Assembly: GCF_007655135.1 (NCBI RefSeq)
Contig: NC_045127.1
Location: forward strand, 40,435,538-40,499,537
Length of the DNA: 64,000 bases
Direction: 5' to 3'
Source: Punica granatum
Taxonomy: Eukaryota > Streptophyta > Magnoliopsida > Myrtales > Lythraceae
Of this stretch, positions 5,761-51,820 are shown one piece after another (position 1 is the stretch's first letter; each line of letters opens with the position of its first letter). Under the pieces are notes generated by a model. That model was not told the origin of the DNA. It did no database searches and saw only the letters and a program-made list of their open reading frames with translations. A program made the position numbers and the translations under genes.

Positions 5761-6450
5761 AAAAATAAAAATAAACAATTTATCAGCGTAAATGTGGTTT
5801 TAATTGATGAAAAGGTGCGCGAGTCTCTTCCTATAATTTTTACTATAATTTGTAAATAACTAAAATTTAATCGGGTGCATAATAAGTGAGATTGAGTGCA
5901 TAATAAATGCTAAAAGAAAATTTTAAAACAAAGATAATAATTAAAAAACTTTTAATAAATGCAATTAATGTATCTAAATCTCCCACTCACTATATAATAA
6001 TTTAAAGAAAAGAAAAAGAATATGGAAAAAAAAAACAAAGAATAATAATTAAAAATGTTTAATAAATGCAATTAAATGTACTCAAATTTCTTACTAAATA
6101 CAAATAAGAGAAAATTTTTGATGTAATTACTTAATTATATATAAGTGATAAATGTATAGAAACAATTCAATTAACGCGACATTATAAAAATTGAGCCTAG
6201 TTTATAGAAATTGAAATAAAATTTTTGATATTCTTACGAAAATTAGTGAAGTATATATATAATTCATCATAAAAACTAAACATATAGACGTACAGGCATA
6301 TTGAAAAGTACTAAAATTTAACGTGTTAAAAATAAGAATCATGAATTATAAAAATAATTACCTTTTAATAAATTCTAAAATAATAAGAAATATATATAAA
6401 AAAAAGTATGTATATAAACTAGAGTTAATATACATATATATAATATATAT
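5760..6450. other. AT-rich intergenic sequence, no feature seen
   Basis: Very AT-rich sequence with many short A and T runs and no plausible coding frame. It continues the repeat block on its left and ends at the foldback element at 6453. Nothing else is supported. Confidence 0.5.
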
Positions 6451-6452
6451 AA

Positions 6453-6797
6453 AGGGTTTTTACCTAAAATGGCCCATAGTTTGTCCGTTTTGTCAAATCT
6501 ATCATATGCTTTTTTTTTGTCAAATCTATCCCATGGTTTACTTTTTGTATCAAATCTATCACAGCGTTATCTTTTCCGTTAACATCTAACGGCCGTGCTG
6601 ACGTGGCACGTGGAGAGATAGTGGGCCACACTTGCCACGTAGGCGCCACGTCAGTACGGCCGTTAGATGTCGACGGAAAAATAACACCGGGATAGATTTG
6701 ATGCAAAAAGTAAACCATGTGATAAATTTGACCAAAAAAAAGCATAGAATAGATTTGACAAAACGGACAAACCATGGGTCATTTTAGGTAAATACTC
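6453..6797. mobile_element. Foldback MITE with GC-richer core (Mutator-like?)
   Basis: The two ends are inverted copies. The left end contains tttacctaaaatggccca and the right end reads, in reverse complement, tttacctaaaatgaccca. Pairing continues inward for more than 100 bases, including the motif gtttgtccgttttgtcaaat. The centre (about 6570-6680) is GC-richer, with several ACGT-core motifs (gacgtggcacgtgg, ccacgtaggc, ccacgtcag) also in inverted arrangement. There is no transposase, so it is non-autonomous. Flanks are TA-rich, so the target duplication (perhaps tatataa) cannot be fixed. Short open frames on both strands are by-products of the inverted repeat. Confidence 0.8.
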
Positions 6798-6799
6798 CT

Positions 6800-7370
6800 A
6801 TATATAATGTCTCATTATATAGAATAATAACAAACCTTACCCACAAAAGAAGATTATATAAACTGAAAAAATAATAATATATAGAATAATAAAAATCTTT
6901 ATCCATAAGGAAGATTCCTTAAATATGAAAAACTATAAAAGAATAAAAATATTTAAAATAATATAATTATATTTAACACAAACTAAAATTGTGAAAGAAA
7001 ATAAATAAATTTACTAGACATAATACGAACGTTGATTATAAAATTATAATTGAATTATTCAAAAGCATTCATGCAACTCTATTGAAAATTATTTTTGAAA
7101 ATTGATTGTTCAAAACTTTTATTTTCAATAATAAAAATAATAATACTAATAAGTAAATTCATATCTTAAACTGTGATAATTATTATTCGTACAACATATA
7201 ACCCCTGCAATGTATGGGATTGAACACTAGTTGTATTCTTAGAATATTATTGTGGGTTTCACGTGTTGACTCACATAAATAAATTAAATATTATATTATT
7301 ACTCACTTTTCCAATTATGCACGAGGGTTATCAAACACAACAGTCTCATATTTTCTTCCTATATTCCTAG
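6800..7370. other. AT-rich intergenic sequence
   Basis: No gene, RNA or element ends could be recognised. Composition is extremely AT-rich. Confidence 0.4.
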
Positions 7371-7377
7371 ATAATGA

Positions 7378-7616
7378 TTCCATGGTTAAAATTTTGAGAG
7401 ATTTTTTGGTAATCCTATCTCGTCATGTGGCGTAAGGAAGTACTAATTAAATTGTAATAAACTAAATAATAAGTGTTAATTATTTGATTAATTGCAATAA
7501 TTTTTTTAATTGAAGCAATCTTATTAGTTTTTTCACATCACATCATTATGAGATAGGATTATTTAAAATTTTCTCTAAAATTTTCCTTACAATCTTAAAT
7601 TCTCATAACCATGGGA
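7378..7616. mobile_element. Small foldback element (MITE-like)
   Basis: ccatggttaaaattttgagag near the left end and a related inverted sequence near the right end (ctctaaaattttcc, then aaccatgg) can pair. An inner pair reads taatcctatctcg on the left and, inverted, gagataggatta on the right. No coding sequence lies inside. Family unknown. Pairing is imperfect, so the call is moderate. Confidence 0.5.
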
Positions 7617-7722
7617 GAAATGTTCATCTATTTTTTTTCCTTTTTCTTTTTTCTGACTTTTGATATAGAATGTGACGTGAAAAAAGAAGAACAAATAATT
7701 GCGAAATCCTGTTAATGAGAAT

Positions 7723-7967
7723 TGAGCATAGCTGCTATAATATTTATTTCACTCTATCAAGTAGTTTGAAATTAGAAGAATATATAAGAACATATATAGA
7801 TATATTATATTTTGCTGAAAGAAGCATTATAAGATCACTGAGCATCGAATGTAGCTGTAACAAAACTTATAATAGTTATTTCGCTCTATTAAGTTATGTG
7901 AAATTAGAAGCATACTATAATATATATATATATTGTACTTTGCTGAAAGAAGCATTATAAGAAGCTG
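7723..7967. repeat. Tandem duplication of about 120 bp
   Basis: Two adjacent units share gagcat near the start, the phrase tatttc-ctctat-aag, gtgaaattagaag or a close variant, and end with tttgctgaaagaagcattataag. Units are roughly 7723-7840 and 7841-7967. Noncoding. Confidence 0.65.
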
Positions 7968-8039
7968 AATAAAAAAAAAAGATGAGAATATATAAATGGG
8001 AAAAGGAAAGGATAATCCACATGTCGGCATTAATCATCG

Positions 8040-8834
8040 TGCCGGAGTGACGAAAACACCCTCGGTTAAGCGCGGGAGACGAGATATTTTGCGGTAGCTG
8101 CTAGTGTCAGTTTGGTAAAATTGCAGGCAGGAGAAGGAATGATCAAGCAAGAGTGAATACGGAAGAAATGTTCTGCTGCTGCGAGAGTGAAGGAAGAAAC
8201 CGACCGCCATGGCCTACCCTTCTTCAACTTCAATGCTCGCTTTCCCATCCCATCCCCATGTTGGAGAGTGGAAATGAAATCATAGCCATATAACCCCATC
8301 GACCCTTCTTCCCTCTCTCTCTCCCTCTCTCTCGTTTCTCCATTCCCGTCCGTATGGTCTGAACGTTCCGTTTCTTCATCGCCATCGATCCAATCTCTCT
8401 CTGTGTGCTTGATCGAATCTCTGATTCCACTATAGCTTTTGTCCTTTGATTCTACTGTAAGTATCTCCCTCTCTCTCCCCTTTTCTCCGGTCACTTTCTG
8501 TACACAGTCGGGCGTGATGATTTGTGCGGGTCTGCGTCGATGCATTGCTTTCTCGTGATTGCCATTTCTTTCTTCTTTCTTCTTTCTTTGTTTTTTTTTT
8601 GATAAGTCGCGATTTTCATTTCGCGCTGGCCTATGCCTTCAGCTTAAGTGTGTTTTACGATGCTCTGTTTGTATGAAAATGCATGAAAATCCTTTTTACT
8701 GTAGCTTAATTCCTCGTGTATGTTGGCATAGCGGGCGTTTGTCGGGTTGACCTTAGTTCGGGGAAGTTTTCTGTGGCGTTTATTTGCTGATTCGTTTGAG
8801 ATCTCGGGTGAATTCGCATTGGAAGGTAGGGAAG
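8040..8834 (+). promoter_or_regulatory. Probable promoter and 5' leader of the SYT7-like gene
   Basis: GC rises abruptly from the AT-rich flank. A pyrimidine microsatellite (CT repeats, about 8307-8337) and C/T-rich stretches resemble plant 5' UTRs. A good splice donor (ACT then gtaagtat, at 8457) and candidate acceptors after pyrimidine-rich tracts ending at about 8642 or 8704 suggest an intron in the leader, but the acceptor cannot be chosen by eye. No clear TATA box was found. Open frames on the minus strand here are low-complexity by-products of the CT tract. Confidence 0.5.
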
Positions 8835-11800
8835 ATGGGCCTGATTTCGGGTATTTTCATGGGGACGCTCTTCGGGGTGGCGCTGATGGCGGGGTGGCGC
8901 CACATGATGAGATACCGCAGCAACAAGCGCATCGCCAAGGTACTTAATTCTCAAATGTATTTTCTGCTTCTTTTTTTTGGCGATGTTCTGGACTGTGGTT
9001 CTGCCTTTGGGATTTGAAAAGATATCCATATGAATTTAACCATCTAATCCTTGCAATTTCGGGCTGAGGTTTTGGGCTTCTCTGTGGTTTATAATTGATA
9101 GATTAATTACCGTCGGAAGGAAGCCGATGAAATTCTGCAGTAGTAGCATAAATTACGGTGCATTCTGCTGTACTAGTGCTACTTATTGGTTAAGGTGTCC
9201 ATTTTCAGCAAAGTTTGAATTCTGATATATCTTGGATTAAGCAGCAGGCGGTGCTGTAATTGGTAACGTGGCCAAGTGCCAGGACTAATATCATTTATGA
9301 GGGACGTCTTCTGGCTACATAGAGTATAATGGGGGTGGGCAATTGTCTGCAGGCAACTTGTTTCAATTAAGCTTAAAAAGTTTTTAGTTGAAATTTGTAA
9401 AGTGGAAAACTTTGTTTTAGCAGGGTGTACTTATTATAGGAGATAATACTGTGGAGTTGCTTGGTAATAATTGTAGTCAAGTTATTTTTCAGCATGTACG
9501 TTGAAATTCAATTGTCAATATTAGTTACGTTCATTGTGCTGGTTGGATTCACTGTCGTACAGGCAGCTGATGTCAAATTGCTTGGATCTCTGACGAGAGA
9601 CGATCTAAAGAAGATTTGTGGTGATAACTATCCTGAATGGATATCTTTTCCTGTTTTTGAGCAGGTCAGGTTTATTTCCAACTATCATCACATGAGGAAA
9701 GTTTTTTACTGCTTTAATTTATTCCCTGCAGAATCTTTCCCTTCATGAAGAGCATGGGAATCCTTCCAGTTGAAAATTCTTTTCATTTAAAACTTAATTG
9801 GTGTTGTTAAAGGTATGAGCATGTGGTGATCAATGGAGCATGATGGTTCAGAACTGTTAATGTAGTTTACTCTACTTCAATGAGATTTTTCCCCAATAAA
9901 CGTGTTTTTTTTCCCCTTTTTCTGTTAGACAGTCATGCTTGTGTCTTGAATGCATGCGTAGATAGGATCACTAGGCATTTTTAGAGCAAGGGTGATGATA
10001 AGGTGATAGAACATGGCAATAAATAAAATATCAATGTGATTATCCTCCATGTAATGAAAACTATGCCATTTTCTGTCCCATCTAAATTATCGTTTCTATT
10101 AGGGAAGGAAGAAGGTAGGTTGGGATATAATGTTTCGAACTATGTCTACAAATTTAACAACAAAATAAATATAGGCTTGATTAGTCTCTCACTTTATGAA
10201 CCTTATTCTTGAAATAAAGAAGTTGCTTTGAAAGTTTTAAATAGTGAACCTTTTACCCCATCCTTTTTAGGTATCCACCTTATCTTGGTAACATTGCATA
10301 TATGTTTCCCATTCTGCGCACTGAGTTACCACAATGGCTCTTATTTATTTATTTATTTTTCTATATAATCTTGTTTTTGACTTCATATAGATTATATTTT
10401 AGATATTATGACTTGACTTGGTTTATATTCCTGCTGTAACAGGTGAAATGGATGAACAAGCAACTCAGCAAGTTGTGGCCTTATGTTGCAGATGTAATCT
10501 ACTTCCTTTGATAATCATATCTATCATCAAGTTAATTCACTATATTCTTTTGAAAAAAGGTTTGATGGTTATTCTGATCTAGAAAGACTAAGCTAGGGTG
10601 AGTATGAAGATCTAGAAAGACAAGGTTTTGCTGTATAGGGAAAAGGTCTTCATTTCTGATTCTGAAAGAGTAGTAGTCGAAGAACCACTCTTGCGGCATA
10701 TGTTCATCAGTTAAGGCTGTTCTTTCCCTTGGTTTTCCATCCACTCAGAACTTTTACTTTTATCACACTACCAGAAAAACCTTCTCTAGATGTTCTTACT
10801 TTTAGGCTTGGTGTTGAAGATAATTTGTTTAACTCTCCTATGGGCATGATAGCAGGTTTCATGATTTGATAATTGTGAGCACTACATCGAAGAAAGGCTT
10901 ATGTTAAAGCAACATTGGTACCTGCAGATGTTAATAAATCGAAGATGAGAAAGTGTGAAAAGAATTAACCGTTTTGTCAACAAAGATTTGACTTGGGTTC
11001 TTAAAAATTTCAATATTTTCATGTGTCATGTTTTATTAGTATTCCATGAGATGAGTACAATTGGAAATTGTGTAAATAACTCCCAAAGTGACAAATTTCA
11101 CGAGGTCAGTGAAGTAAATAACTCCCAAAGTGACTAATTTCATGAGGTCAGTGAAATACAGTCCCGGCAGAGGAATTGATTTCAGATATGATTCTTACTT
11201 TTCCGTTTTTCTAAAATTTGCCTGTATTTGTTCTTAGGCAGCCACACTGGTTATCAGAGAATCTGTTGAACCCCTGCTAGAAGAGTATCGCCCTCCTGGA
11301 ATTACTTCATTGAAGTTTAGCAAGTTGTCTCTTGGAACAGTGGCGCCAAAAATTGAAGGTATCGATATGAAGGGGCCTTTTCCATGCCCACTGTCCCCTT
11401 TTCACTCTTCATCTTGCTAATTCTTTTTTTGCGTAGTCAGCTTAGTGGCTGTTGCTTGGAGTTCCTTGTACTTGGATAACTCTTTTAGCCTGGTGGGTGC
11501 AATGTCCTTGGCTTCTGGCACAATAGCGCTTCATGGCCCATGATAATCTCTACCTTTGGTCTTTGTCAATGTTAACTAGATCTAAACTCTTAATAGGAGA
11601 AAATGGTATGATTGTTTGTAAATTTTTAAGGATTGACACATGTTTTATCTGGCAAAAAATTATCCACATTAGAATTTGGATTAAAAAATTGGTTTAAACT
11701 TCTAGTGATCAGTGCCCTGTGATGACTCTTACCAATCACACTACTCCAGATATTGAAGTAGTGTGATTCTGTGCGAGCTTTTCTGATGCTTTTCTCGTTT

Positions 11801-14800
11801 TAACATGTATGGTTATGGGGAATTCACTTCTTTAACGTTGAAGATCCCTATCATGCTACTCCCGCGTGTATATTATTTACTTATTTATTTTTTTGGGTTG
11901 AATTGGTGCCCTTAGAATCAGTTGCAGTTCGAGGAACTTTGACTTCACTTAATGTCTTTTTATTTTTCTTTCGGTGAAACAATTTAGTCGCTTAAGTGTG
12001 CATCTTCTTCTCTAAAACCTTCTCATGGTTCTAATGAGGATATTAAGTAAAACCTATTAATTCTGTTGCGGTGATCGATTCCATCACAACTTGGTGATGC
12101 TTCAGTCACTTAATTGTATTGCTATGTACACTGTTTTTCTTTTTGTATAGAGGTATTGCGTTTTCTATGAGCAACTCTGCTTCCTCTAATTACCCAGGCA
12201 TTCGCGTTCAGAGTCTTAAGAAAGGTCAAATTACAATGGACATCGATTTTCGCTGGGGAGGTGATCCAAGCATTATTTTAGGAGTTGAAGCTGCCATGGT
12301 TGCTTCAATACCCATCCAGGTTGGTGTGAAGCAGCATTACTTGGTTATTGCATTTCAATGGTGTAATAGTTTATTTAAATTTCCTTCTTTTTTATTTTTC
12401 CCTATTTATCTGGTTTCACAGGAATTGCAAGTCTCTTTTGGAAACATTATTTTACTTCTGAAATGGTTTCCTCTTTCCAACAGTTGAAGGATCTCCAAGT
12501 TTTTACTGTCATCCGTGTTATTTTTCAACTTGCGGAAGAAATCCCTTGTATCTCAGCTGTTGTTGTTGCGCTGCTTGCTGAGGTAAGTCTGGTCAAATTT
12601 GATACAATCCTGCTTCTCATTATTATGCTAATCGAAGTGATATTACATTGTAATGACTACTGTAAGTCTTCGTCCATTCTTCTGTTTGATTTGTGTTAAA
12701 TCTGTCAATTGTATCACCTGTGATTCAGAGAGTTGTTTTTTTATGCTGGGACATTGCAGTGCCTAGTTCTTTTCTTAGGGTTCACTGGTGGTAGTCCCTA
12801 GAGACAGAGTTGGCTACAACTATAGTGATTCTTTTACTGATTTGTTTTTGTAAATTTATTTCTCAGCCCAAGCCTAGAATTGATTACACTCTTAAAGCTG
12901 TTGGTGGAAGCCTTACTGCCATTCCAGGTCTTTCAGACATGATTGATGTAAGTTCATCATTATTTCGTTCTTTACTTCTCTTTATCTTTTGTTAAATAAC
13001 ATTTTTTTTTTTGCAGATCCATTCATTTTCTGACGTAATCTTAACTAATCATCTGCATTACTTGAATTTTGTAGGATACTGTCCATTCCATTGTTACAGA
13101 CATGCTTCAGTGGCCTCACCGAATTGTTGTTCCAATTGGTGGTATACCTGTGGACACAAGGTTAGTATTTTACTCCAATTAGCATATGACTGTTATGGCT
13201 GTTGGACTTTTGGTTCCTGTAATAGTATTTACTAGCATGTTGATAATTTAAAAGTCAATCCTTTTGGCTAGTTTCAGGGTATTCATAATTAGTGAGGAAA
13301 ATACTTTTTTTTCAAAAAAAATCTTTTCCATTGGTTCCTGTCATATCATCTACTAGCACGTTGACCATTTATCACATTGATCCATTTTGCTAGCTTCAAG
13401 TTATTCACCGTAGTGTGGAAGGTACTATGTTTTCGATCATATACGTTATTTGATTGATGGCACAACTGCACATGTAATATGCTTTTCCTTCTTCTTTTTT
13501 TTTTTGTTGAGTAAGTACAAGTGATCTCTGCTATATAATTTCTTTTTTGGTTTATAGATATTAATGGCATATCTGATGAGTTGTTTTGACTGTGATTCAG
13601 TGACTTAGAGCTTAAGCCTCAGGGGAAACTGACAGTGACGGTGGTAAAGGCAAATGACCTCAAAAACATGGAAATGATTGGAAAGTCTGATCCTTATGTG
13701 GTTGTGTACATCCGCCCTCTATTTAAAGTTAAGACAAAGGTTGTAGAAAACAACCTGAATCCTGTTTGGGATCAGACGTTTGAATTGATTGCAGAAGATA
13801 AAGAGACACAGTCACTTGTTGTTGAGGTTAGGGATACCACTTCATCTTTCATGCTAATTTAAAGATATTTGTTCTTTTTCTTGGTCGACCTAGTGAGCAT
13901 CTTTAGTGTGATGTTTCCACAATTGTACCCTCCCACATATGCTTGCGACCGGTTGCTTCGTTGATATTCTTCATGGTTCTCCTTTGAAAGAGAAATATTT
14001 AGCAATAGGAATAGGGCATTCATTTTGTTGCACATCACACCATTAATACATCCTTGAGTTTCTACTAGTTTGATTAATAGTTATAGGGATAGTGAAATTT
14101 GCAGTATAAGTTTCAGAAAATAGAATTTTGCTGGAGAAGTTTCAAGGAATGTTGAGGAGGTCCGGATTTGCTTGGTTGGAATCACAGGATGTACATTGCG
14201 CAGTGATTGTCTAACTTCCACGGACAGGAATCCAATTGTACTCCATGTGTAGTCGCTTCCCCTGCTGGATGTTGACACGGTTAAATATGAATTGGTCTTG
14301 GTCTTCTTATGTTCTTTTTGACTGTTAAGTCAAATATTTAGGATAAAGTCCTTTTTTGATGTAACTCTGATCTCTCCCACCCTTGACTCTTTTAGAGCTG
14401 GCTGTTTGGGATGATCAGCGGCTTATCTCTTTCTTATGCTTGACATTGAGGTATTCCATGAATAGGTCTTTGACAAGGACATTGGGCAAGACCAGCGGTT
14501 GGGAATTTTCAAATGGCCTTTGATTAATCCTCCTTTGGGACGATTAGCGGCTTATGTCTTTCTTATGCTTATCTCTTTCATATTTAGAGCTGGCCCTGAC
14601 ATTGAGGTATTCCACGTATAGGTCTTTGACAAGGACATTGGGCAAGACAAGCGGCTGGGCATTGCCAAATGGCCTTTGATTGAGCTGGAAGCTGACGCTT
14701 TGCAAGAGAAGGAGCTGAGATTGCTTCCATCACTTGACATGCTGAAGATAAAAGACAAGAAGGACAGAGGCACTGTCACCATTAAGGTATTTGCCAATTG

Positions 14801-15770
14801 GTTAACTTTACAAATCTCATCAACTAATGATATTATACACCCTCTCTGTGATCAGTTTACTGATGGAAAACGTGCAGATAAAAAATTTGCCTACTTTTCT
14901 GTTTTGTTTTAAATGTTTGTCCCCCCCCCCTTGTATTTGTTTTTGTTCCAAAGTGTTAGATAATAGTTCTAAGCTCGCCTTTAGATAATATTTCTAAGCT
15001 CGCCTGACCATTTGGTTCTTGTGGCTAATATAGGAAATTCATCACGGGTGTAGAAAGTTCCTTGAGATTTAGGATTGAGAATCATACTTGTCAAGGAAAT
15101 TTGTGTCGATATTGTTTTTTCAAATTTTTGATGCATCCTGGAGGTGTAGGTATTTACTGCACTTCGATACAATTGCATAAATTTCTATTGTTTCCTGCAT
15201 TATCCATTGTACTTCTTCTCCTAAGCTTGAAATCCTAGTATGTATCGCTTTCTGGGCCGGTCTTAATGGAACTTAGTGGTTTGATATATAGAAGAAACAA
15301 TATATAATTGCTGCCTATGATTATACTGGTGCTGTTGAACAATCCAGGTTGTCTATCACCCATTCAACAAAGAAGAGCAACTGGTGGCTCTGGAGGAAGA
15401 GAAGAGGATCTTGGAGGAGAGGAAGAAGCTGAAGGAAGCTGGAGTGATCGGAAGCACGATGGACGCTATCGATGGGGCTGCATCCCTGGTGGGTTCTGGG
15501 TTTGGCATGGTGGGCACAGGCATAGGAACTGGGGTCGGCCTTGTTGGGAGTGGGATTGGAGCCGGGGTTGGCCTCGTTGGGACCGGGATCGGGGCCGGAG
15601 CCGGCTTCGTGGGGAGTGGCCTTGGGGCTGTTGGGAGCGGGCTGAGCAAAGCTGGGAAGTTCATGGGACGGACCATCACTGGCCAGTCCAGCAACCACAA
15701 GAAGAGCAGCAGTGGAACAACTACCCCTGTGAACAGTGCGCAAGAGAATGGTGGTGCGAAGCCCCTCTAG
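8835..15770 (+). CDS. SYT7: Synaptotagmin-7-like / calcium-dependent lipid-binding protein (SMP-C2)
   Basis: Eleven exons join in frame to 526 aa: 8835-8939, 9563-9664, 10443-10493, 11238-11358, 12198-12319, 12484-12582, 12867-12947, 13075-13160, 13601-13826, 14622-14786, 15348-15770; all introns are GT-AG. The protein starts MGLISGIFMGTLFG, a hydrophobic anchor (about 3-20). An SMP lipid-transfer domain (about 65-250) carries FRWGGDP and PRIDYTLKAVGG. One C2 domain (about 262-375) has GKSDPY, NPVWDQTF and VFDKDIGQD, with acidic residues expected to bind calcium; the first loop position is Glu (NMEMIG). A charged coiled coil (about 398-425) and a glycine-rich repeat tail (to about 490) follow. 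Sequence memory places it with Arabidopsis SYT7/AtCLB (NTMC2T4), a single-C2 relative of the ER-plasma membrane tethers SYT1-5. It probably acts at ER membrane contacts. A broken copy of exon 10 lies in intron 9. Confidence 0.93.
14406..14685 (+). repeat. Tandem duplication that copied the start of SYT7 exon 10
   Basis: Intron 9 contains an earlier copy of the exon 10 acceptor and the first 60 or so coding bases. Copy 1 exon sequence begins at 14466 and reads VFDKDIGQDQRLGIFKWPLI. The true exon begins at 14622 and reads VFDKDIGQDKRLGIAKWPLI, so the period is 156 bp. Upstream intron sequence (tttggga-gat-agcggctta, ttcttatgctt, gacattgaggtattcca) is duplicated too. Copy 1 diverges after ATTAATCCTCC and has no visible donor, so it should act only as a pseudo-exon or decoy acceptor. 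Confidence 0.85.
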
Positions 15771-16260
15771 TGTGCTGGTTTCTTATCCTTAACTAGTTCC
15801 GAACAAACCTTCGGTTGTTTGGAGCACAACTGAGTTCTGCGTATCTGACGTCTGTTCTGCAACAGGTCTACTAGAAATTTAGAGGGGATATGGGGCAAGA
15901 CTTAGCCCGGTATGTATGTGAATATAAGCTTTGGTAAATGTTTCATTTAAGCAGGGGATAAGTCTCCTTTTCACTACTGTAATGGTCGGGGTTTTGCACG
16001 ATTTGATTAGATGTATTTGCTTCTTTCTGTTTGCTTTTCCTTTTAGCTTATCATTCAATATGTTCAATCTGATAAGGGATGATAAGAATGCTGTTAATTC
16101 TCACTCTAGATGGCCGTGTCACTGTGTATCGTTCGGGTAATGTAGATTCCGCATGACTTTTGAGCATGGATTGTGCCTGGTAATACATTGACTCTCTTTA
16201 CTTCATCTGTGCTTTCATGTAGAACAATATTTAGGAGACGTACAAAACCATGGGCGCTTT
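15771..16260 (+). other. 3' UTR and downstream flank of the SYT7-like gene
   Basis: T- and A-rich sequence after the TAG stop at 15768-15770, with no further coding exon. No canonical AATAAA was chosen with confidence, which is normal for plants. The transcript end is not defined. Confidence 0.4.
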
Positions 16261-16460
16261 TTTTTTTTTTTTTTTTTCCAGTGTGAACCCTGATATCCGG
16301 TCTAATTGGGTTCCAATTAATCCGGTCGAACCGGATTGGCCTATTAAGAGGTAAAGTTCTCCCAATATGGATTTTTTGGGTTTACAAGGACTTGAATCCG
16401 AGACTTTAGTTAAGCGGAACGAGCGCTGAACTATTTAAATCAATCCATGTTGGTAGGAAT
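16261..16460 (-). mobile_element. Possible tRNA-derived SINE remnant
   Basis: Read on the minus strand, aaatagttcagcgctcg resembles a Pol III A box and ggattcaagtcct resembles a B box, about 40 bases apart, as in the tRNA-like head of plant SINEs. On the plus strand the region begins with a T run (16260-16277), matching a minus-strand A tail. The boxes are degenerate. No target duplication was confirmed. Confidence 0.4.
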
Positions 16461-17850
16461 CGAGCCTTTAACCTACACGGATCGGTTGTTTGTAATCTTG
16501 ATAGTAATGCAAGCAGTCCTTGAGAAGTCCAGAGGATTGAACGTACAGTAGCTGTGAATTCTTATGCAACCATGCCTGCGGTTGAATTTTATTGATGGTT
16601 GCTCTCTTGATTGTTGTAATTTTTCATTTGCCAGGAAATACCGCTAAGCTGGAGGTATCGAGGACAACAAATACGGGCTGGTATTTTACTGCAAATACGT
16701 CGGATTATAGTTGAACTTGATGCAACATTATATAAACCCAGTTAAATTTCTAATTTGTAGGCAGTATATCGGTAATATATGAAACTAGAGCTGAGGTGGG
16801 TTGACATGATATAAGAATTACGAGATTAATGAATAGAGTTTTCTTGAATTTTTCAAGTTTTAGTTTGTAAGTATTGTTTAAAAAATCTAGAAATTTGGTT
16901 ATATTTTTCTATTTTCCATAATATTATGCTATAAAATCCCAATTTTTTTAAAATAATTAATGTTAAATAAACATCTTTGGGTAAAATGTGATAAGTAATT
17001 TAATTTGATTGACACCAAATCAATTAGTCAAGAGAACGCCAAACCTTGACCATAAATTTGATGCTGGCATGTGCAGAAGTTCTTAGAAGTCTTCACCGCG
17101 TCTCATTTATGATGCAACAACCAAGGCGGCTCTTTTTCATGTTATCTACCTGTCTACCATCCGAGCAATTATGAAGCGAATATTATTCAGACATTTGGTT
17201 ATGTAACATCCAATCAAAATGTTTAAAAGTCGAAAATCGGCCCTACAACAACCAATATTTTTTCCTATCATCAAGGATTGGCAACGAGAAGTTCAATGGG
17301 AGATCTCAAGTTTGAGTCTCATATGGTTCTTTAAATCCCCGGTTTTAGTAGAGCCTTTATAAAGCTGAGCCGAGCCCTTGCCTTGCCTCGCTACCTCCCA
17401 GAACCCTTAGCCCCCATTTTCGGTCGATGAACATGAGAAATATAGAGAGTTACAGGATATCGGAGCTTTTCCCGGGAATTAATTAGACATGCGACCTATC
17501 GAACCCCTTCTTTTCTCAAAAAAAAAATGTCTAGCTAAGTTAGCTTGTATTATTATGGGATATAGACAGCATGCTAACAACACTCATTAAAGACCACAAG
17601 GTCCGGACTAGCCTGATGAAGGAGCTTATCGGTTCAGGGGCGGAACCGGTCCAAATTTAATATTTGAATGCACATTTTTATTTTTTATTCATCTGGATAT
17701 GAATAACGGACCAAAAAAAAAAAGCAAAGAAGATAAGCCATGCATATGAACGCTTGTGGACCTTTGTCTTTATGTATGATTTATCAATAATTTACATATA
17801 TATTGATCGACTGTGGTATTTGTCTGGGAGACACTTCACTGGACGGATAA
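16461..17850. other. Intergenic, SINE-like and unclassified fragments
   Basis: No gene recognised. At about 17280-17345 the plus strand reads gagaagttcaatggga followed by aagtttgagtctca, an A-box/B-box-like pair hinting at another decayed SINE head. The rest is AT-rich and featureless. Confidence 0.35.
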
Positions 17851-17856
17851 TTGATG

Positions 17857-18082
17857 TTGCGTTTGGTTTTAAAATAGAATTTTAAAATCAAATTTTGATT
17901 TTGAAAAAGAATTGTATAAATGGGGTTCACCCTTTGACTTTGTATGAGTTATTTTGTTTTGTCGTAAAAAAAATGATATAAATGGGTCTATTCTTTGACT
18001 TTGTATGAGTTATTTTGTTTTGTTGTGGGTAAAATTAGGTTAAAGTTGTGATTTTAAAATTATATTTGCAAACCAAACAAGT
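17857..18082. mobile_element. MITE, copy 1 of a family present twice in the window
   Basis: Ends are inverted: ttgcgtttggtttt on the left and aaaccaaacaa on the right. The interior repeats tttgactttgtatgagttattttgtttt twice. A second copy in the same orientation lies at 53436-53678 with the same ends and interior. No coding sequence. The superfamily is not certain. Confidence 0.75.
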
Positions 18083-18293
18083 CATGAATTATGCTGTCGA
18101 AATCAAGTGAGTTTTGGAGTATCTACTAAAAAAAGAGAGTCAGTTTTAGATTTGATGTCTTAATTTTTGCATTGGAAATAAAAATAAAATAATAAATAAA
18201 AATAATAAAGAATAATAACATGATATATTTCATTGTTTAGTACTTTTCTTAGATTTATCATATGATTTAAAAATTATTTAAAAGGAATCATAA

Positions 18294-18462
18294 TTTGCAT
18301 GTTATTTTAGATTTATCCGGTATTACTTTATTAGTTAATGTTTGACAGAATTGCTGACGTGGCTCATGGAAGTAATGTGGGCCCATCCTTGTTACGTCAA
18401 CAACTCCGTCAAACATTAACGGAAAAAGTAACGTCACGATAAATCTGGAATAATATGCAAAT
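18294..18462. mobile_element. Short foldback MITE
   Basis: Left arm tttgcatgttattttagatttatccgg, then gttaatgtttgac, pairs with right arm gtcaaacattaacgg, then cgataaatctggaataatatgcaaa. The loop contains tgacgtggctcatgg and gtgggccc, echoing the core of the element at 6453-6797, so the two may be distantly related. Noncoding. Confidence 0.7.
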
Positions 18463-18469
18463 CATGAAA

Positions 18470-20610
18470 TATATGGTGTTAAAAAAAATCACATGTACTT
18501 GGTCTTATAAACATCATATGTAGACCATAAGAATTATCATTTTCAAGACTGTTTTATCTTGGAGAAACTCTTTCGCATTTGCATTAGTTGTGATGACTTC
18601 TCCTTGAAAGAGAACTAAACAGAGACTTGTACTTGTACTGCGCATAGAGTAAAAAAATATAAACAATTAAATTATAAATTAAAATAACAATATAGAAACA
18701 TATTTAAGAAAATAAATTTTATTTCACATTGACGTCCAAAATCAACTTGCTGAGTTCAAAAATTTGTTGTGCAATAGCAAAATTTTAATTTAGTGAAATA
18801 TAACTTAAAAGAAAACTTTCAAAATGAAAATAAAGAGATAAGATGGATGGGAGGGGAAAAAGGTTGGGAGGAAAGAGAGTGAGCGAGTGTGAGTGAAAGA
18901 GAGAAAATAGGGTTGAAATAAGTAGTTATTTATGTGAAATTATAATTACAAATACAATTTTAACGGTTATTATTAATTGAATGTATTTTATTAAGGGTAT
19001 TTTTAATCGAAGTAAAAGTGCGACGAAATGTAAAAAAGATAATATATATATATCTATATATTATATTATATTATATTATATTATATTATATATATACATA
19101 TATGAAGAGACTAGTACAACATAGTAGAAACGAAAAATAGAAGGTTAAATGATAATGCAAGGCGAAGGCAAATTTTATGGTGAAAGCTCGAACAAATATG
19201 AGTTTAATTGCTCCACAAATACATGATCATGCAAAGATAAAAGGATAAATTACATCATCGGTGAGCTGACAGGCACATTTGCGTTTGCGGAGTATGCTTT
19301 AACAACATTGTTACAAATTTCGGTCTACTTTCTCAGTTTGAAAAAATCTATATATATTATGTAATTCAATATACTCTCACGAGAGTCTCTCAGAGCTTTC
19401 CTTTGAATCGACGAGAGTCTTCCAATTGGATTGATGAGAACGTGCCATATCAGAGTCCTTAACTCCTCAGGAAAAGTTTCTTCATGGTCTTGCATTAAAC
19501 ATGCACATACATTTAACTAATGCAATATACGAAAAATTTGAAAAACCATATTCCACTGAAATTCTAAAATGTCTCACAAAAAATAAATAAAATACATAAT
19601 TGAAATTGCTCGCGCAACGCACGGGAAAAAAGATAATTATATATGTAATCCATATATATAAATAAAATTGAATCCTATTGTAATAAATGCTCCATCATCA
19701 ATGTAACAAACTTATTAAAATAATTTTTTGAAAAGATAAAACTATTAACCTCATTTTTATTATAAGATTAAATCATTATAATATAAACTTGTAATAGAAT
19801 AAAATTTTGAAATTTGAAATAAATATGTCATAAAATTTTATATTTAAAAAATATGAAATCGAGTTTGTGTATATACATATATTTATGATAAATCTGGTTA
19901 CTATACAAACAATTAAATAAATATAAATTAAATTATTCAAAATTAGTCTAATTTCATTAATTTATCATTGTATAAAATGTGAAATTCATTTTAGAATTTT
20001 TTATTGTGTTAACAAGGAATATATATTAAAAAAATCAGAATAATTTTTATAGAGGGTGTTAAATAAATGTGCTAAAACAAATATTTACAACACAATATAT
20101 ATATAAACACCACGAAAAAAATTCAATTGATCATATATATAGAATTTTAAAAACGATAGTGGACATAAAAGAAAAAAAATTATAATATATCACTATGTAT
20201 TTTATCTCATAAATAAATAAAAATAAAATGTAAAAGACAACAAAACGCCATCTTAGAAAGAGGACAAAAAGAAATTCGATTATAATTATTAAACTTAATT
20301 AATGTAAGTGACAAATCTATATTAACAATTAACTTAAATATCATATACAACTTATTTTGATCATAGTATAATAATCAACTTACTCTAAATTTTAACAAAA
20401 AAATATTGAATAATACTATTTGAAAATTACAATTATTAATTGAAAATATTTTTGATAAGATATAATAATTATAATAAGAACTTATACAGCTAAATATAAA
20501 AGAGAACCCGTGCAAGGCATGGGAAAAGAAGACTAGTGCACCTTAAAACTCCAACAACCAACTCTCAATCAAGAAAAAGGAAAGGGTGAAAAAAAAACGA
20601 AAAAGGAAAA
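18470..20610. other. AT-rich intergenic region with TATAT microsatellite
   Basis: No gene seen. An ATATT-type microsatellite occupies about 19045-19100. The rest is AT-rich with no recognisable element ends. Confidence 0.45.
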
Positions 20611-24528: not shown

Positions 24529-27500
24529 ATGTCCGATCAGATCCCTTCCTCCTCCTCTCCAATGGACCCCTATGAGTTCCTGAAGATCTCCCCAAACCCT
24601 GATGGCTCCCTCACCCGCCACTCCCCGCTTCCTTCTGTCCCCGCCTCGGAGTCCTCCTCCGGCGCTGCCCGTTCGAGGGACGTCCTGCTGGACCCCGCCA
24701 AGCAGACCTTCCTCCGCATGTTCCTCCCTGCCACCCATGCTGCCAATGATACCGGCAAGCTGCCCGTGGTGATCTACTTCCACGGTGGTGGCTTCATCCT
24801 CTTCAGCGTGACATCCCTGCCATTCCATGAGTCATGTGCCCGCTTGACCGCCCAGCTCGGTGCCATCGTCCTGTCGGTCGAGTACTGCCTCGCCCCTGAG
24901 CACCGACTCCCAGCCGCATACTATGACGCGGTGGACGCGCTCAACTGGCTCCGCGACCAAGCGAGGTCGGGCGCCTCGGGCTGCGATGCGTGGCTGTGGG
25001 AGCATGCAGATTTCTCCAGGTGTGCGTCTTCAGTGTTTAGTTAATTCCCTTAAAACTAACTCTAACAATCCTGACTACCAGGAGCTTCCAGCGAAAAAGA
25101 ATACAATGAAATAACATTATTCCTCCAAACCCATTCGGTCTAAATATTTTTGTCCAAATAAAAGCGGTCAATACAAATAAATTGCCATTTATCGGCGACT
25201 AGTTTCCATCAGTAAAAACCCAAAAAACCATCAGTAAAACCCTTGTGGTGCTATACTGACGGTTGAAGGAGCTATACCTCTAGTTTTTATGACAATCAGA
25301 ATAGGTCTCGTGGCTATAGATATATACCGACAGCGTCATCATCAGTAAATGCCAAGTTTTTACCTCCAGTAATTTCCGTCATTACAAACCTTAAAAGCAT
25401 AAGTAAAACGACTGCTTTTCTGACTGACATTTCATCAATATAACATCATTTTAAGGCCAATCCTCTTATTTTCACAACTTTTACCGACGATTACTCGTCA
25501 TAATAGATTTGACTTGACTAGAGAGTTCCACTGATGGAAATCTATAGTGATCATAAAAATTCAAAATAAGCAACTTTGTGCATATTTGTTTGTTTCAGTC
25601 ACTGTCCCTATTTCTATTGAGTAATGGAGCAAATTAAAGCTCCCCCATTATCGAACCGGATGGAGAGAACCTGCTCTGCCTCTTGACAAGTTTGTCCCTC
25701 TCATAGAACCAACAAAGGCCTAAAATGCAAATGAAAAGGAAAAAAAGAAAAGGGAAAAAAGTTCATCAGCTCTAGCAAATTTATTTAAGCCCCATTTGAG
25801 ACTATACAAGATTAGAAAATCATGCTTATATTGCTGAGAAACTAAATGCCATGAAACTAGACATGTAAGATGATGAAAATTTCTTTAAATTGGCTTAAAT
25901 AAGAAAAGGAAGGAATGTCTAAATCAAGTCATAATGGAGATTCATAGATGGAATAAAGAACTTACATGTAAATAAACTACTTCCCAATTTTCAGATGAAA
26001 GGACTTGACCTTTGTGATCATGGACTTCCCGGCATCAGTAGAAGCACTCTTTCCCAACAATATCCTCTTTGCAAGATCTTTCTTATAGAATGCCTCAACT
26101 ACATCTTTGCCCTGTAAATTCAGAAAACACAAATATCCAAGTTTTCAGTTCAGTAAAACCAGAAGCTCTCTGTTTCTCTCTCTTGGGCTCCTCTCTGAGT
26201 CTCCATATCTCATTACAAAGTCTAGTTTTAGCCTCAGAGAAACAAGATAACCCACCTGAATAAAACCTGAACAGAGCCAACACCCTGTCAAGTGTATTCT
26301 CCAATTCCTCTTCTGATGTTCCTTTGTTACCAGCACGAAGCTTTTCATCCAGAAAATTTGCGATAAACTCAGCAGGTTGGTTCTGTCAAGTAAAGCAGTG
26401 AGAGATAGATACAAACTACGACCCTGCAAAATCATAAGGATTTCGTTTGAAAGAATCCAGGGTGCTCAAAGATGAAACAATATTTCAGTCATAGAATGCA
26501 AAAAGTCCAAACTACTCCACCCAGTCTATCGTAGCTCACACTGGAATGCCTTGGAAATAGGTCTGAACTTAGTATTTCACACGCTATGTTCAAATTAGTA
26601 AATGATCAAAAAGGAAGAGCACAAATAATGAACAATTACTAACCTGACAAAGATTAATTTGATGTTCAAACGATCCCTTAATGGTATTTGAGAAAAGTTG
26701 ACACGTTCTCTAAAGGTCTTCAATATGGTTCCCATCTATTAGCATTGTAAAGCCCTAACACATCAGACAAAGCAAAGCATTGTTTAGCATAATCCAATAT
26801 TTAAACCATACATGACTCTGCAAGTTGCCTAGAAATGCAAATGTATGTGCAGGAATGATTGAAATATCAAGTATGTCTACTCATAAAAGCACATACACCA
26901 TGGTTAACATTGTTCAAAACCAAATGGAAAGATATTGATATCAATACACAAAATCACGTGACTAACTGCCACATATTAGCTGTCAGCATCCAGCGGATAT
27001 GATGAACCAAAGACAATTATGGATGCATATATTTGAGCCAAAATTTCATATGCACAATGAAACAGTTTCATATATCCGCACCTTATCAAGGATAGCTGGG
27101 ATATGGCGCTTGGCGAGCTGTTTTTCTGTTGTTGCAATTAGAGGCTTCCTAGTACTCGTGTCTCGGTAAAGCAAGCACATCTCGTGTTCCTCATGCAATC
27201 ACACCTGCAAGAATATTTCATCTGCAATTTCCCATCAATCCACTAAAGACAGCTACGTTAAATTACACAAAGCACTAGCATTCATCTAAATTATCATTGC
27301 TACAAACACCAATTGCTTTACTTTGTTTGATAATTGTTCGTTACTTACTCAAGACTACCATAACAATCAACCAGGGTTGTGCTAAATCTGAATAATGACA
27401 GTCCAAATGCAAGCACTATTGTCAGGCAGAAAGATCAATGCACCTCCACATGCTTCGGATAATCTGGAACATCCGGTGGTTGCATGTGTTTCATGCATTA

Positions 27501-29392
27501 AGCACCATAAAATTCAGACATGCACTCAAGGAAAGGCTTCTCAAAGCTTTCTGAGTAAATTCCAAGTGCGGTAAACGGAAGTTTGAGAACCCAATTCTAT
27601 AAATGAGCCACGAAAGAAAAATATAATCTCCTGCCAAAATAACCTAGTAGTGAAACTGCTCAAAATTGAGTACATAATTGTGTAAAATTTATTCTAAGTA
27701 AATGGATATATTATGTTATAAAATTGATCTAAGCTAACGCCTTAGGCATCATTTATAACCCAAAAAAATTTATGTAACCTACATTATTTTTTTATGTATG
27801 ATTTTTTTTAAGACCACAAGTTAAAATTAATCTCATTTGGGCATCGACTTGGCACCGTCTGTGAGGTAGATTTAATCGAAAATAAAAGGAAAGGTTTCAG
27901 TGAAGGGAACTCTCTTATTCACCTCTATAGTTTTTTACCCTTGGATATATTATAGAAGGCTTTCTATAGAGTTCCATTGCACATAAAAAGAGAATCAAAT
28001 CGTAACCAAAATTAGTCAATATCAAATCATAACAATATCAACTCCTTATTTGACTGATAATCTTTCCTTATTTTTCTAGGATCAAATCTCATTGATTACA
28101 TTCAATAGATTTAATTTTATATTTCAGTTAATCTTTATTTCATGCACAGTAGATCAGTGATAGTAGATTAAAAGAGCATGGCAACCTCAAATTAATCTGA
28201 TTGTCTAACAGATGATGCTTTGGTCATTTTTAAGGGCGAGGCCATGATATCTCGTGTCGAAAAGCAAGATATCCATCAAGAGAGGAAGAAAAAGAAAATA
28301 ACTGATGGAAATACTATAAAACTACTGACGACTGCTTGTGCCATCACAATATACACAAACGGATACTTTGTTCGTCAGCAATACAATCTATAGTAACAGT
28401 TGATTTTGTCAGTATAGGTAATCTATATTGACGAGAAAATTTATCGTTAGTAAGTACCTACCTACAATGCTGCTTTGGTGGACTGTAGGTAAATGAGCAA
28501 CCTATAGCCTCAGATTTCTATTGCCGTCACTGAAGGGATGGCTTTTTGTAACAGTACCAGCCCCGAGTAAAAGATCCGTCACTGGAAGACAATTATTTTG
28601 TAATGGGTATATACTTTTTCCGAGGTAGTGTTACTCATCTCGTAATGTCCAATAAGATTTACTGGGAATACGTGGGAACGCTGTGGGCTTACTTGAGCTA
28701 CGTGTCATTAAACTACATTATAAAAGATCGATTGCGTTAGTATTAGACTACCATTCCTTCTTTTCTGGACCCATTTTTTTCCTTTATTATTAGATGTGTT
28801 AAATCGAATTTGAAAGTACAAAATTGCTCCAGTATTAATTAGGAATTTTTAGCACATCATGTATCTCTCATCGTGTTGCAGGTGTTTCTTGATGGGAAGT
28901 AGTGCGGGCGGGAATATTGTCTACCATGCGGCCCTACGTGCACTCGATATCGACTTCTCCCCGGTACAGATTAGAGGGCTGATAATGAACCAGCCCTACT
29001 TTGGTGGTGTCGAGAGGACAGGGTCCGAGACGAGGCTGGTCAACGATCGCATCTTGCCACAGGCAGCAAACGACCTGATGTGGTCGCTCGCGTTACCGCA
29101 AGGCGCCGATCGAGATCATGAGTACTGCAACCCGATGACTACCATGGAACACGAGAAAATCAGCAGGCTACCAAAGTGCCTAGTCCGGGGATACGGTGGG
29201 GACCCTCTCGTGGACAAGCAGAAGGAGTTCGCCAAGGCACTGGAAGCACGAGGGGCGCATGTGGTGACCCGGTTCGACGAGGGAGGATTCCATGCAGTGG
29301 AGCTCTTCGATCCCACAGCAGCCAAGGCTTTGTTCGAGATTATACATGAATTTGTGCATGTTACCTGTGCTTCTGTGAAATCAACTATGTAA
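24529..29392 (+). CDS. Carboxylesterase of the plant CXE family (CXE8/CXE9-like)
   Basis: Two exons, 24529-25019 and 28882-29392, join through a split Arg codon (HADFSR, then [10 protein letters not shown]) to give 333 aa, close to CXE family length. This alpha/beta hydrolase family hydrolyses short-chain esters and is probably cytosolic; the natural substrate is unknown. Visible signatures are HGGG (oxyanion hole, about residue 88), GSSAGG (nucleophile Ser), GYGGDPLVD (Asp) and the late His in GGFHAVELF. The sequence resembles my memory of Arabidopsis CXE8/CXE9 (DPYEFL-, [28 protein letters not shown]). The start is the ATG giving [18 protein letters not shown]; the later Met before DPYEFL is an alternative. 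Coding GC is far above the flanks. The 3862-bp intron carries an antisense CUL4 pseudogene and CACTA-like sequence, which may lower splicing efficiency. Confidence 0.92.
25140..28628. mobile_element. Candidate CACTA-like non-autonomous element in the carboxylesterase intron
   Basis: The right boundary (28607-28628) in reverse complement reads CACTACCTCGGAAAAAGT, like the CACTAC-AAAA termini of CACTA (En/Spm) transposons. Inside it (28300-28600) and near the left side (25200-25560), short motifs related to catcagtaaa, actgacg and ccgtcac recur, on the two sides largely in opposite orientation, as in CACTA subterminal repeats. Sequence between the two zones includes the CUL4 gene fragments. I could not find the left CACTA terminus or a convincing 3-bp target duplication, so the left boundary is only the start of the repetitive zone. 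Confidence 0.5.
25994..27577 (-). pseudogene. CUL4: CULLIN4 pseudogene fragment, introns retained
   Basis: Five exon-like blocks on the minus strand match the middle of plant CUL4, the scaffold of DDB1-linked E3 ubiquitin ligases. In gene order: 27577-27442 ([17 protein letters not shown]), 27206-27081 ([19 protein letters not shown]), 26757-26644 ([13 protein letters not shown], then [15 protein letters not shown] with the part between deleted), 26384-26256 ([20 protein letters not shown]) and 26112-25994 ([18 protein letters not shown]). Introns with recognisable splice borders separate them, so it came from genomic DNA, not mRNA. Stops (the Arg codon after HVEV is now TGA), an internal deletion and a frameshift before the GKDV block make it non-functional. 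Both termini of the cullin are absent. It lies antisense inside the carboxylesterase intron. Confidence 0.88.
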
Positions 29393-29900: not shown

Positions 29901-29924
29901 AAATGAATGCACATGATAAATTTC

Positions 29925-30540
29925 GAGTATGAAATAAGACAGAAAATTTACACGATAAATATTGATTGAATTTTATGAGTTACAACCTGTAATTGTACTC
30001 TTGTAATTACAAGGAAAAAATTCTTTGATTCTTTTCGCTTATCCTAAACGCCGTTAGGAGGGTATTTGGGACTTGATCTCGAAACTTTGCGATTAGGCTT
30101 CGATTTAATGTTGCGTTACTGTATCTCCGGGCTTTGTGCTTGTTCTGAGACTTTCCCTTATACACGAACACCTTTAAAAATCATCAGCATGTGCGATTGA
30201 TCCGATCGATTGTGAAGCTAGCAGGAGTTGCCGTGACTTTATCCGCGTTCTTCGTGTTCTTCGTGTCTTCCTTTGAATCCGAAGTGTTCTTGAAATCTTG
30301 AAGCCTTTTGATCTTCTCTCACTCCATTAATTTACAGAGCACATGTTCTTTTCCTCATAGCTCTCTGAAGTTTCTGCTCTCCAAAAGGTCCCTATTGTGA
30401 ATGAGGACGGCTCGTATTTATTGGTGGAGAGGAGGGAGCCATCAATTTTTGCACATGCACATAATTGGTCGGTTCAAGATAATGATCTAATTTTTTCTCA
30501 TTTAAAAAAATAATTTATTATCCATTTAAGAGATACTAGA
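29925..30540 (-). mobile_element. Solo or partial LTR, second copy of the element at 50.8-51.4 kb
   Basis: This block aligns along its length, same orientation, with 50818-51433: gaaataagac-gaaaatt, ttacacgataaat, acgaacacctttaaaaatcatc, gaagtgttcttga-atcttgaag and ctcactccattaattt-cagagcac all recur. At 51.4 kb the same sequence precedes a Gypsy-like gag on the minus strand, so this is read as an LTR of that family in minus orientation. No gag is attached here. Target duplications were not checked exactly. Confidence 0.7.
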
Positions 30541-37834: not shown

Positions 37835-40176
37835 TTGGACGACCGCCAACCTAGTGCTCGCAATGATAAGCTATGCCTAATGGGTCTTCTTTGCCAAATC
37901 TGAGAGTGATGTACGTGATTCTTCCCACTCAACAACATCCATTATATCTACATCCATGAAGTCAAAGACGAAGCTGAGGATCAAAGAAAGGAAGTTGGTA
38001 GCTGCAAGGCAATATCTCTAGGAGTCATGAACCTTGTTGATGATCACACATAGGTTCATGAAGTTAGCTACAACCAATCCGAACAGCAAGATTGCATTGA
38101 AAACACGTCCTACTCATTTCTCAGTATCTGCCATTTGTGTGTGCTGGAATCGTTTGATAGCCTGCAACATTAAACGTAAACACTAAAAAGAATATAGAAA
38201 AGCATTTGTGCTTTACTTGGTCATGAGTTTGTTGCTCGTGCAATGCTTAATCACTATACCTATTTTACTTTAATTTTAATTAAATTTATAATTTTAAGAG
38301 ATTTTTAGATTTTTTTAAATTACAATCAAGATGCTTTTATTTGAAATAATTCATATGCTATTATTAAACTAATTGCAAGTAGCAGTAGTTCAATACCACA
38401 ACACTAACACATACATAAAAATGTATGTATATATACACATATATGTCCATACATATACACAAATATGTAGAGCAAAGAGAAAAAAAAGATCCATAATATT
38501 CTCGATGTTAGATATTTCAATGAAACAAATATTTCACATATTTTGTATGAAAGTTATTATAAAAGATAGATGAGAGAACACTAAATACGTATCTCTAAAA
38601 ATACTAAGCTACGTGTCAATAATATTTCAATTAACTATAAAAAGGTTAATTGGTTAACTAAACAATGAGAACCAGTTCTATTTGGTTTGATTCTTTTATC
38701 CTAAAATAATAAGTTGCAATTTGGACTTATACCCTCAAATCAAACCGAGCAACTATGTGATTCGGTTCGGTTGAGAACGGTTTCCTAAACGAAATAACGG
38801 GACCACGCCGGCCCCTACCTCATATTATTTCCTACCGTTTCAATCCACTTAAGTCACTAACTAATATAATAAATTCTTTTTCTCGAAAAAGTTTGGGGTT
38901 GTCCGACCAAGAATCACTGTGGCAACACCTTAAAAGTGCACTTCCAATGACGTGGATGAGCGACCCAACAAAGAGTAGCTTCCACAAGCTAAATCCTCTG
39001 AAAATCAGTGTGCCAAGAATGGTGCAAGCTATCCCAATATTTGTTGATATTTGCACAATCACCGTAAAACCCTTCAATCCGCTCGCCAGTACTTGCAAAA
39101 GTTCGTCTGAGGAGCCAATTTCTTGTTTGTGAAGATGTCCAAGGGAAACCACTCTAAAAGTTCATAGAGGAAACCACCGTACCAAAAACATGAGACAATC
39201 CAAATTTAGAATTAAATTTACGATTTTGTTTACCGTTGTAATTTTATTCATTATGCTAAAAAATCAGAAAAGAAAAATATATAAATAAATTGCCCGTGAC
39301 GCTCAATTGACAGCAAACAAAAGCCCTAATATTTTAGTTAACTAGAAAAGGTTAATCGGTTAACTAAACAATGAGAACCGGTTCTATACGGTTTGATTCT
39401 TTTATCCTAAAGTGCTCGGTTGCAATTTGGACTTATAACCCTCAAATCAAACAGAGCAACAATGTGATTCAGTTCGGTTGAGAATGGTATCCTAGACCAA
39501 ATAATCGGACCACGCCAGCCCTTACCTCATATTATTTCCGACCGTTTCAATCCATTTAATTCACTAACTAATATAATAAATTCTTTTGCTCGAAAAAAGC
39601 TAGGGGTCATGCCCGTAATAGAGCTCCAATTCCAAGGGCCTAGAGTGCCCAATTGAGAATTACTGCGGCAACACCTTGAAAGTGCACTCCCGATGACGTG
39701 GATGAGCAACCCAACAAAGAGTAGCCTCAGCAAACTAAATCTTCTGAAAATCAGCGTGCCAAGAATGGTGCAAGCTATCCTAATGCTTGTTGATATTTGC
39801 ACGATCACCATAAAACCCCTCAAATCCGCTTCCCAGTACTTGCAAAAGTTTTTCTGAGGAGCCAATTTCTTGCTCGTGAAGATGTCCAAGGAGAACCACT
39901 CAAAGCTCACAAGGAAACCACTGTACCTGACACATGAGAAAACCCAATTTAGGATGAAATTTACAATTTTGTTTACCCTCATAATTTTATTCATTAAGCT
40001 GAAACAGAAAAGAAAAATAAATAAATAAATAAATTACCCGTGACGCTCAGTTGACACCAAATAGAAGCCCTACTCACCACGATGGAGAGCACTAGCAAAG
40101 TGTGCGCAAGGTCGCATGGGTTCTTGTCCGGCAAGCCACTTAATAAAGAGAGTTGGATAGGGATCCAATTATACAT
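37835..40176 (-). pseudogene. Unidentified membrane-protein pseudogene with internal duplication
   Basis: Minus-strand coding-like pieces, in gene order: NWIPIQLSLLSGLPDKNPCD (about 40170-40080), YSGFLVSFEWFSLDIFTSKK followed by hydrophobic segments ending LFVGLLIHVIGSALSRCC (about 39925-39660), a second copy of that exon (about 39170-38920), and FNAILLFGLVVANFMNLCVI (about 38090-38030) leading to a C-terminal acidic stretch. Several hydrophobic segments suggest a multi-spanning membrane protein. The last piece has two in-frame stops and the second exon copy is frameshifted. I do not recognise the family. One exon and its flank are tandemly duplicated with a period near 707 bp (about 38640-39180 and 39347-39930). 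Confidence 0.6.
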
Positions 40177-50762: not shown

Positions 50763-50817
50763 CGTAATTTTTTTTTTTGCAAAGAGGTATGAGACATAGA
50801 GATTATCCTACCGTCGA

Positions 50818-51433: not shown

Positions 51434-51820
51434 ATATTATGTAAACTCCTTGATCTTGTTGGTTCCAAATTATCTGAAATTAATGATTATTTAATTAATT
51501 TCTAGATAATAATATTTGAATCTATTAACACCAGATATTTGTATGATGAAATACCACATTTGCCCTTGGATAACATGTTTAGTATTTAATGTATCGAGAT
51601 GTTCGGGCACGTGATATATTATTTGTGCACCATTAAATTCCAAAATTAACACCGAACTTAGCTGGGCACTAAAAATAATGGGGGTAATTTGTAAAATTTT
51701 TCGTGTTCTACAATGACATTTCATATATTTGTAAAAATAATCTTTAAAAATTATATTAATTACTTTTTAAATTACCAAACTTTTATATTTATACAATAAT
51801 GACTACGGGTCCCTGTCTGC

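Follow-up and report, generated by a model that had tools for sequence, protein, structure and literature searches.

A CULLIN4 gene fragment in a pomegranate carboxylesterase intron was very probably carried there by a CACTA-like transposon

A carboxylesterase gene of pomegranate (Punica granatum) holds, on the opposite strand of its single intron, a broken piece of a CULLIN4 (CUL4) gene. It lies in a window of 64,000 nucleotides (contig NC_045127.1, positions 40,435,538 to 40,499,537), which is the whole stretch of DNA that was analysed; all coordinates below count from its first letter. The CUL4 fragment is enclosed by a CACTA-like non-autonomous DNA transposon of 3,437 bp (25169-28605), and this element very probably brought it there: a CACTA-like (En/Spm) non-autonomous transposon would have captured a piece of CUL4 and then inserted, with that piece in antisense, into the intron of the host gene. 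Such a carrier explains how the CUL4 fragment reached the intron, and the case shows that sequence alone can suffice to trace a seemingly odd nested piece of a gene to a gene-capturing transposon.

The host is a carboxylesterase-8-like alpha/beta hydrolase gene on the plus strand, with its ATG at 24529. Its parts, as given by the spliced open reading frame (ORF), are the following.

24529 to 25019, plus strand: host exon 1, matching Abhydrolase_3
25020 to 28881, plus strand: single host intron, GT-AG, 3,862 nt
28882 to 29392, plus strand: host exon 2, including the stop codon

After splicing, the ORF has 333 codons without an internal stop, and its protein matches the Pfam family Abhydrolase_3 with E 1.6e-55; the gene is intact, as an initial annotation of this DNA had proposed. 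Among the best 120 of 4,672 database matches, many relatives are named ‘probable carboxylesterase 8’, and the closest is a Trapa incisa protein (73% identity over 94%). No Punica carboxylesterase 8 is found among these 120, although the database does contain a Punica protein; length limits, 90% clustering and annotation are possible reasons, and the public annotation of the gene model at 24529-29392 may also be broken by the long intron. With the element subtracted, the intron would measure 422 nt, as against the 3,862 nt present.

Within this intron, five CUL4-homologous blocks (A-E) follow one another on the minus strand in gene order, from 27596 to 26001. All were placed by CUL4 homology.

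27444 to 27596, minus strand: CUL4 block A, one in-frame stop
27082 to 27204, minus strand: CUL4 block B, one in-frame stop
26644 to 26754, minus strand: CUL4 block C, one in-frame stop, about 59 codons lost internally (counted by hand against Trapa CUL4)
26256 to 26382, minus strand: CUL4 block D, 127 nt, +1 frameshift near its end
26001 to 26111, minus strand: CUL4 block E, where the homology stops without a recognisable donor site

When the joined pieces were compared with solved structures, CUL4A/B came out on top (E 6.4e-47, 163 bits), and CUL3 (E 9.8e-33, 117 bits) and CUL1 (E 3.2e-18, 70 bits) scored lower in the same search. In the protein database, the top matches are Cullin-4s, with that of Trapa incisa first (best 120 of 1,366 matches); a Punica CUL4 is not among these 120, and length limits, 90% clustering and annotation may again be the reasons. 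On the minus strand, each of the four gaps between blocks starts with GT and ends with AG, giving introns of 239, 327, 261 and 144 nt. Because the fragment has kept these introns, it is not an mRNA copy, and a processed (mRNA-derived) CUL4 pseudogene is rejected. A tblastn search of the window with seven CUL4 proteins gave no match at E < 0.1 outside the five blocks.

Most of this picture had been drawn in the initial annotation, which described five ordered CUL4 blocks with intron-like gaps, lying opposite to the host gene inside its single intron and derived from genomic DNA rather than mRNA. Translated alignment to plant CUL4 matched all five blocks, no intact CUL4 is present at the locus, and each of those points holds; the span then given (25994-27577) agrees with ours (26001-27596) to within 19 bases. 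As for interpretation, the DNA-level origin was correctly recognised, but the mechanism was incomplete, as the transposon termini around the fragment had been overlooked. These termini and the target-site duplication (TSD) outside them are listed here, together with the element; the TSD copies come from a scan for end pairs.

25166 to 25168, unstranded: left TSD, GGT
25169 to 28605, unstranded: CACTA-like non-autonomous transposon with the CUL4 fragment, 3,437 bp, identified by its end pair and equal 3-bp flanks relative to shuffled sequence
25169 to 25184, plus strand: left terminal inverted repeat (TIR), CAATACAAATAAATTG, identical to the right TIR at 13 of 16 positions and to a published CACTA TIR at 10 of 13
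28590 to 28605, minus strand: right TIR, CATTACAAAATAATTG (reverse complement), identical to the left TIR at 13 of 16 positions and to the published CACTA TIR at 10 of 13
28606 to 28608, unstranded: right TSD, GGT

A repeat search of the host intron did not report terminal repeats; the TIRs were spotted by reading the sequence and were then tested. The first query was a CACTA end of 16 nt. On both strands of the 64-kb window, only two places match it at 13/16, and these are the two termini of the element, in inverted orientation. As a control for significance, we used 2,000 dinucleotide shuffles of the host intron. At 13/16, a pair of such ends turned up in 2 of the 2,000 shuffles, and a pair with equal 3-bp flanks in none; at 12/16, the corresponding numbers were 104 and 1. 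The published 13-nt CACTA TIR is CACTACAAGAAAA (PMC7210773). Used as the query at 10/13, it gave a pair in 508/2,000 shuffles and a pair with equal flanks in 14/2,000; when the two TIRs were also required to agree with each other at no fewer than 13 of 16 positions, no shuffle qualified (0/2,000).

The interior adds a second kind of evidence, the distribution of the motif CGTCA/TGACG.

25169 to 25618, unstranded: left subterminal region, 4 CGTCA/TGACG motifs
28156 to 28605, unstranded: right subterminal region, 5 CGTCA/TGACG motifs

The two 450-bp ends thus hold 9 copies of the motif and the 2,537-bp middle holds 0; outside the element, the left flank has 1 and the right flank 0 (450 bp each). 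CGTCA/TGACG is the most end-enriched 5-mer of the element, and an equally extreme 5-mer was seen in 1/400 shuffles. Subterminal repeats are described as a CACTA trait (PMC8195511), and so is a 3-bp TSD (PMC4158355, PMC8195511 and a table for grapevine in PMC2528002); a CACTA TSD of 5 nt is given in PMC8903248. No ORF of at least 120 codons beginning with ATG, GTG or TTG was found inside the element, and the longest stop-free piece in 25169-25985 and 27600-28605 has 65 codons. The missing transposase is what is expected of a non-autonomous element.

Several observations weigh against assigning the element to the CACTA class. The combination of CACTACAAGAAAA and TSD was equalled in the 14 shuffles mentioned above, unless TIR-TIR identity was also demanded. 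Neither terminus keeps the exact CACTA pentamer: the left one reads CAATA and the right one CATTA (reverse complement), each with a single substitution (4/5); the element is therefore named CACTA-like, presumably decayed, rather than a canonical member. Taken without the CACTA consensus, TIR plus TSD is weak evidence: three pairs in the intron reach 13/16 with equal flanks. Relaxing the 16-mer to 12/16 yields one further pair with equal flanks in the window, at 5908-18795, and at 11/16 there are nine such pairs, that of the element included. The subterminal motif was first picked out by eye, and exact words of 8-10 nt common to both ends do not clearly outnumber those of every control pair of segments. 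A second copy of the element or of its ends was not found in the window, and five ORF pieces outside the CUL4 blocks matched no Pfam family at E 0.1, so that no transposase domain was recognised among them; the element class therefore rests on the termini.

Three minor observations on similar sequences may be added. The pair at 5908-18795 consists of CACTA-like 16-mers of 12/16 each, 12.9 kb apart and flanked by AAA; the flanks are of low complexity, and the pair could be due to chance. Another CACTA-like 16-mer, at 10766 (12/16), was discarded: at distances of 0.5-15 kb, no 16-mer of at least 11/16 shares its flanks. Inside the element, TTGGCACCGTCTGTGAGG at 27849-27866 resembles the sequence adjoining the long terminal repeats of plant Ty3 retrotransposons, and the element may contain a second nested remnant there.

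The captured copy is clearly damaged. It has three in-frame stops, one each in blocks A, B and C, and block D is one base longer than the 126 nt expected from a hand count on Trapa CUL4. At the junction left by the loss in block C, the CUL4 reading ‘...LFS’ runs straight into ‘NTIK...’, while Trapa CUL4 has ‘...EAFS’ before ‘NTIK’; since LFS and EAFS both precede NTIK, the codons may plausibly have been deleted between two short stretches that match. To put the point changes on a scale, near-invariant codons were defined as those at least 97% conserved in 108 CUL4 proteins of 700-900 residues, taken from the 120 listed (128 of the 199 codons compared). The fragment deviates at 21 of these 128 codons; when each of the 108 proteins was scored in the same way, leaving itself out, the maximum was 5 deviations and the median 1, and 43 had none. 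In a simple model, this corresponds to about 8% nucleotide change in the fragment after selection ended. The CUL4 copy encodes no cullin and is decaying, with protein-coding selection gone.

The history that we propose is as follows. A CACTA-like element would have taken up about 1.6 kb of DNA from a CUL4 gene, comprising the five exon blocks and four introns. The loaded element would then have inserted into the 422-nt intron of the carboxylesterase-8-like gene, with CUL4 opposite to host transcription; the insertion would have duplicated the 3-bp target GGT and stretched the intron from 422 to 3,862 nt. Most likely the host gene has remained functional, the element being read through and spliced out with the intron. 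The CUL4 introns run opposite to host transcription, so that their splice sites should go unread in the host pre-mRNA, and the orientation may in this way have helped to keep the host gene intact. From the letters of the DNA we infer that capture preceded insertion, that the movement was driven by transposase, that the host transcript is spliced normally and that the fragment has no regulatory role.

Other origins of the fragment must be weighed against this one. Filler DNA in double-strand break repair and ectopic or segmental duplication both occur in plants, and the CUL4 piece might have entered by one of these routes with no transposon involved. The retained introns are compatible with any copy made at the DNA level, and the edges of CUL4 homology (27596 and 26001) differ from the ends of the element; filler could even have entered an element already in place. 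An entry of this kind is nevertheless unlikely, because the fragment is enclosed by a CACTA-type TIR pair, equal 3-bp flanks and a motif concentrated at the ends.

A second alternative concerns function, and is compatible with the transposon origin. The fragment lies antisense to host transcription, and might have been kept as a regulator, with RNA of the host intron pairing with CUL4 mRNA or feeding small RNAs that lower CUL4. Such pairing had been suggested in the initial annotation, and the present analysis lends it no support. There is precedent in the sequences captured by maize Helitrons, Pack-MULEs and Sireviruses, which are described as reservoirs of small interfering RNA (siRNA) acting on donor genes (PMC13317346). 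The same source notes that, with an essential donor, individuals hit by such siRNA may be purged by purifying selection. The decay of the fragment also implies weaker pairing with CUL4: at about 8% change, a given 21-nt stretch would be exact with a probability of about 0.19 (a crude model), and block C lacks its 59 or so codons. Retention as a regulator thus appears very unlikely. Carboxylesterase transcription would yield RNA complementary to CUL4 exons; it is likewise very unlikely that the intron has in this way become a source of antisense CUL4 RNA through which a transposon insertion ties the expression of a hydrolase gene to the abundance of a central ubiquitin-ligase scaffold.

It is very unlikely that the carrier was a gene-capturing element of another type. 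Helitrons are not known to produce a TSD. Helitrons, Pack-MULEs, hAT and PIF/Harbinger elements do carry gene pieces (PMC2528002, PMC8903248, PMC1947982), but the termini found here resemble CACTA, and the duplicated GGT, at 3 bp, agrees with neither the 9-nt TSD of MULEs (PMC2528002) nor the 8-nt TSD of hAT elements and the TTA/TAA of most PIF elements (PMC8903248); MULE, hAT and PIF origins are rejected for these reasons. Finally, block order and splice sites might suggest a functional CUL4 gene on the minus strand, with the blocks as its exons, but this is refuted by three stops, the +1 frameshift, the internal loss and the lack of any further CUL4 match in the tblastn search, and its probability is next to nil.

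For the preferred origin, capture and transport by a CACTA-like element, there are known parallels. Gene capture by CACTA elements is already documented, also for an element lodged in an intron whose gene continues to yield correct mRNA. In the wp allele of soybean, the CACTA element Tgm-Express1 sits in intron 2 of F3H (PMC1947982). Like the pomegranate element, it is of CACTA type, occupies an intronic site and contains exon and intron pieces of host genes; correct F3H mRNA is still partly made, and here the host ORF is intact, with its splicing presumed. Tgm-Express1 holds five gene fragments in 5.7 kb, as compared with one recognised in 3.4 kb here, and its captured fragments are spliced into F3H transcripts as extra exons (PMC1947982), whereas the captured splice sites in pomegranate are antisense and the copy is decayed. 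The antisense orientation should silence these splice sites, unlike those of Tgm-Express1. Because the pomegranate case has its captured exons antisense to the host gene, it leads to a prediction: captured exons inserted in introns should persist longer when antisense.

With Pack-CACTA (Pack-TYPE) elements, ours has in common that it is non-autonomous, has ends of CACTA type and encloses coding DNA that it captured (PMC8903248); it differs in that the pentamer is substituted once per end. LsC1 of lettuce is likewise a non-autonomous CACTA element, of 3.9 kb, with imperfect TIRs and a 3-nt TSD (PMC8195511), but it sits in a 5' untranslated region and can excise, and the excerpt of that paper mentions no CUL4 cargo. 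The Cactavine elements of grapevine are also CACTA families, some with 3-bp TSDs, and two copies of one family hold a piece of a PPR gene; they differ in being very long, 10 to 25 kb (PMC2528002). Among the titles and abstract openings listed from the open-licence PMC literature, none concerns a CACTA element with a piece of CUL4 or this Punica locus.

The rest of the window contains other features of minor interest. Rfam gave 0 matches in the 64 kb. The ORF at 63015-63377 on the minus strand looks like the RNase H end of Ty1-copia elements, and has no Pfam match. A dispersed repeat is present in two copies, 79% identical, at 29923-30538 and 50814-51439, one of them just downstream of the carboxylesterase gene, and 38620-40072 is a tandem duplication of about 0.7 kb with copies 82% identical. 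A probable UTP:RNA uridylyltransferase (URT1-like) gene occupies 54613-56523 on the plus strand: the protein of 54613-55773 shares 99% identity over 95% with a hypothetical protein of Punica granatum and matches proteins named UTP:RNA uridylyltransferase 1 more weakly, and the ORF that follows it matches MTPAP-like central palm and TUTase domains.

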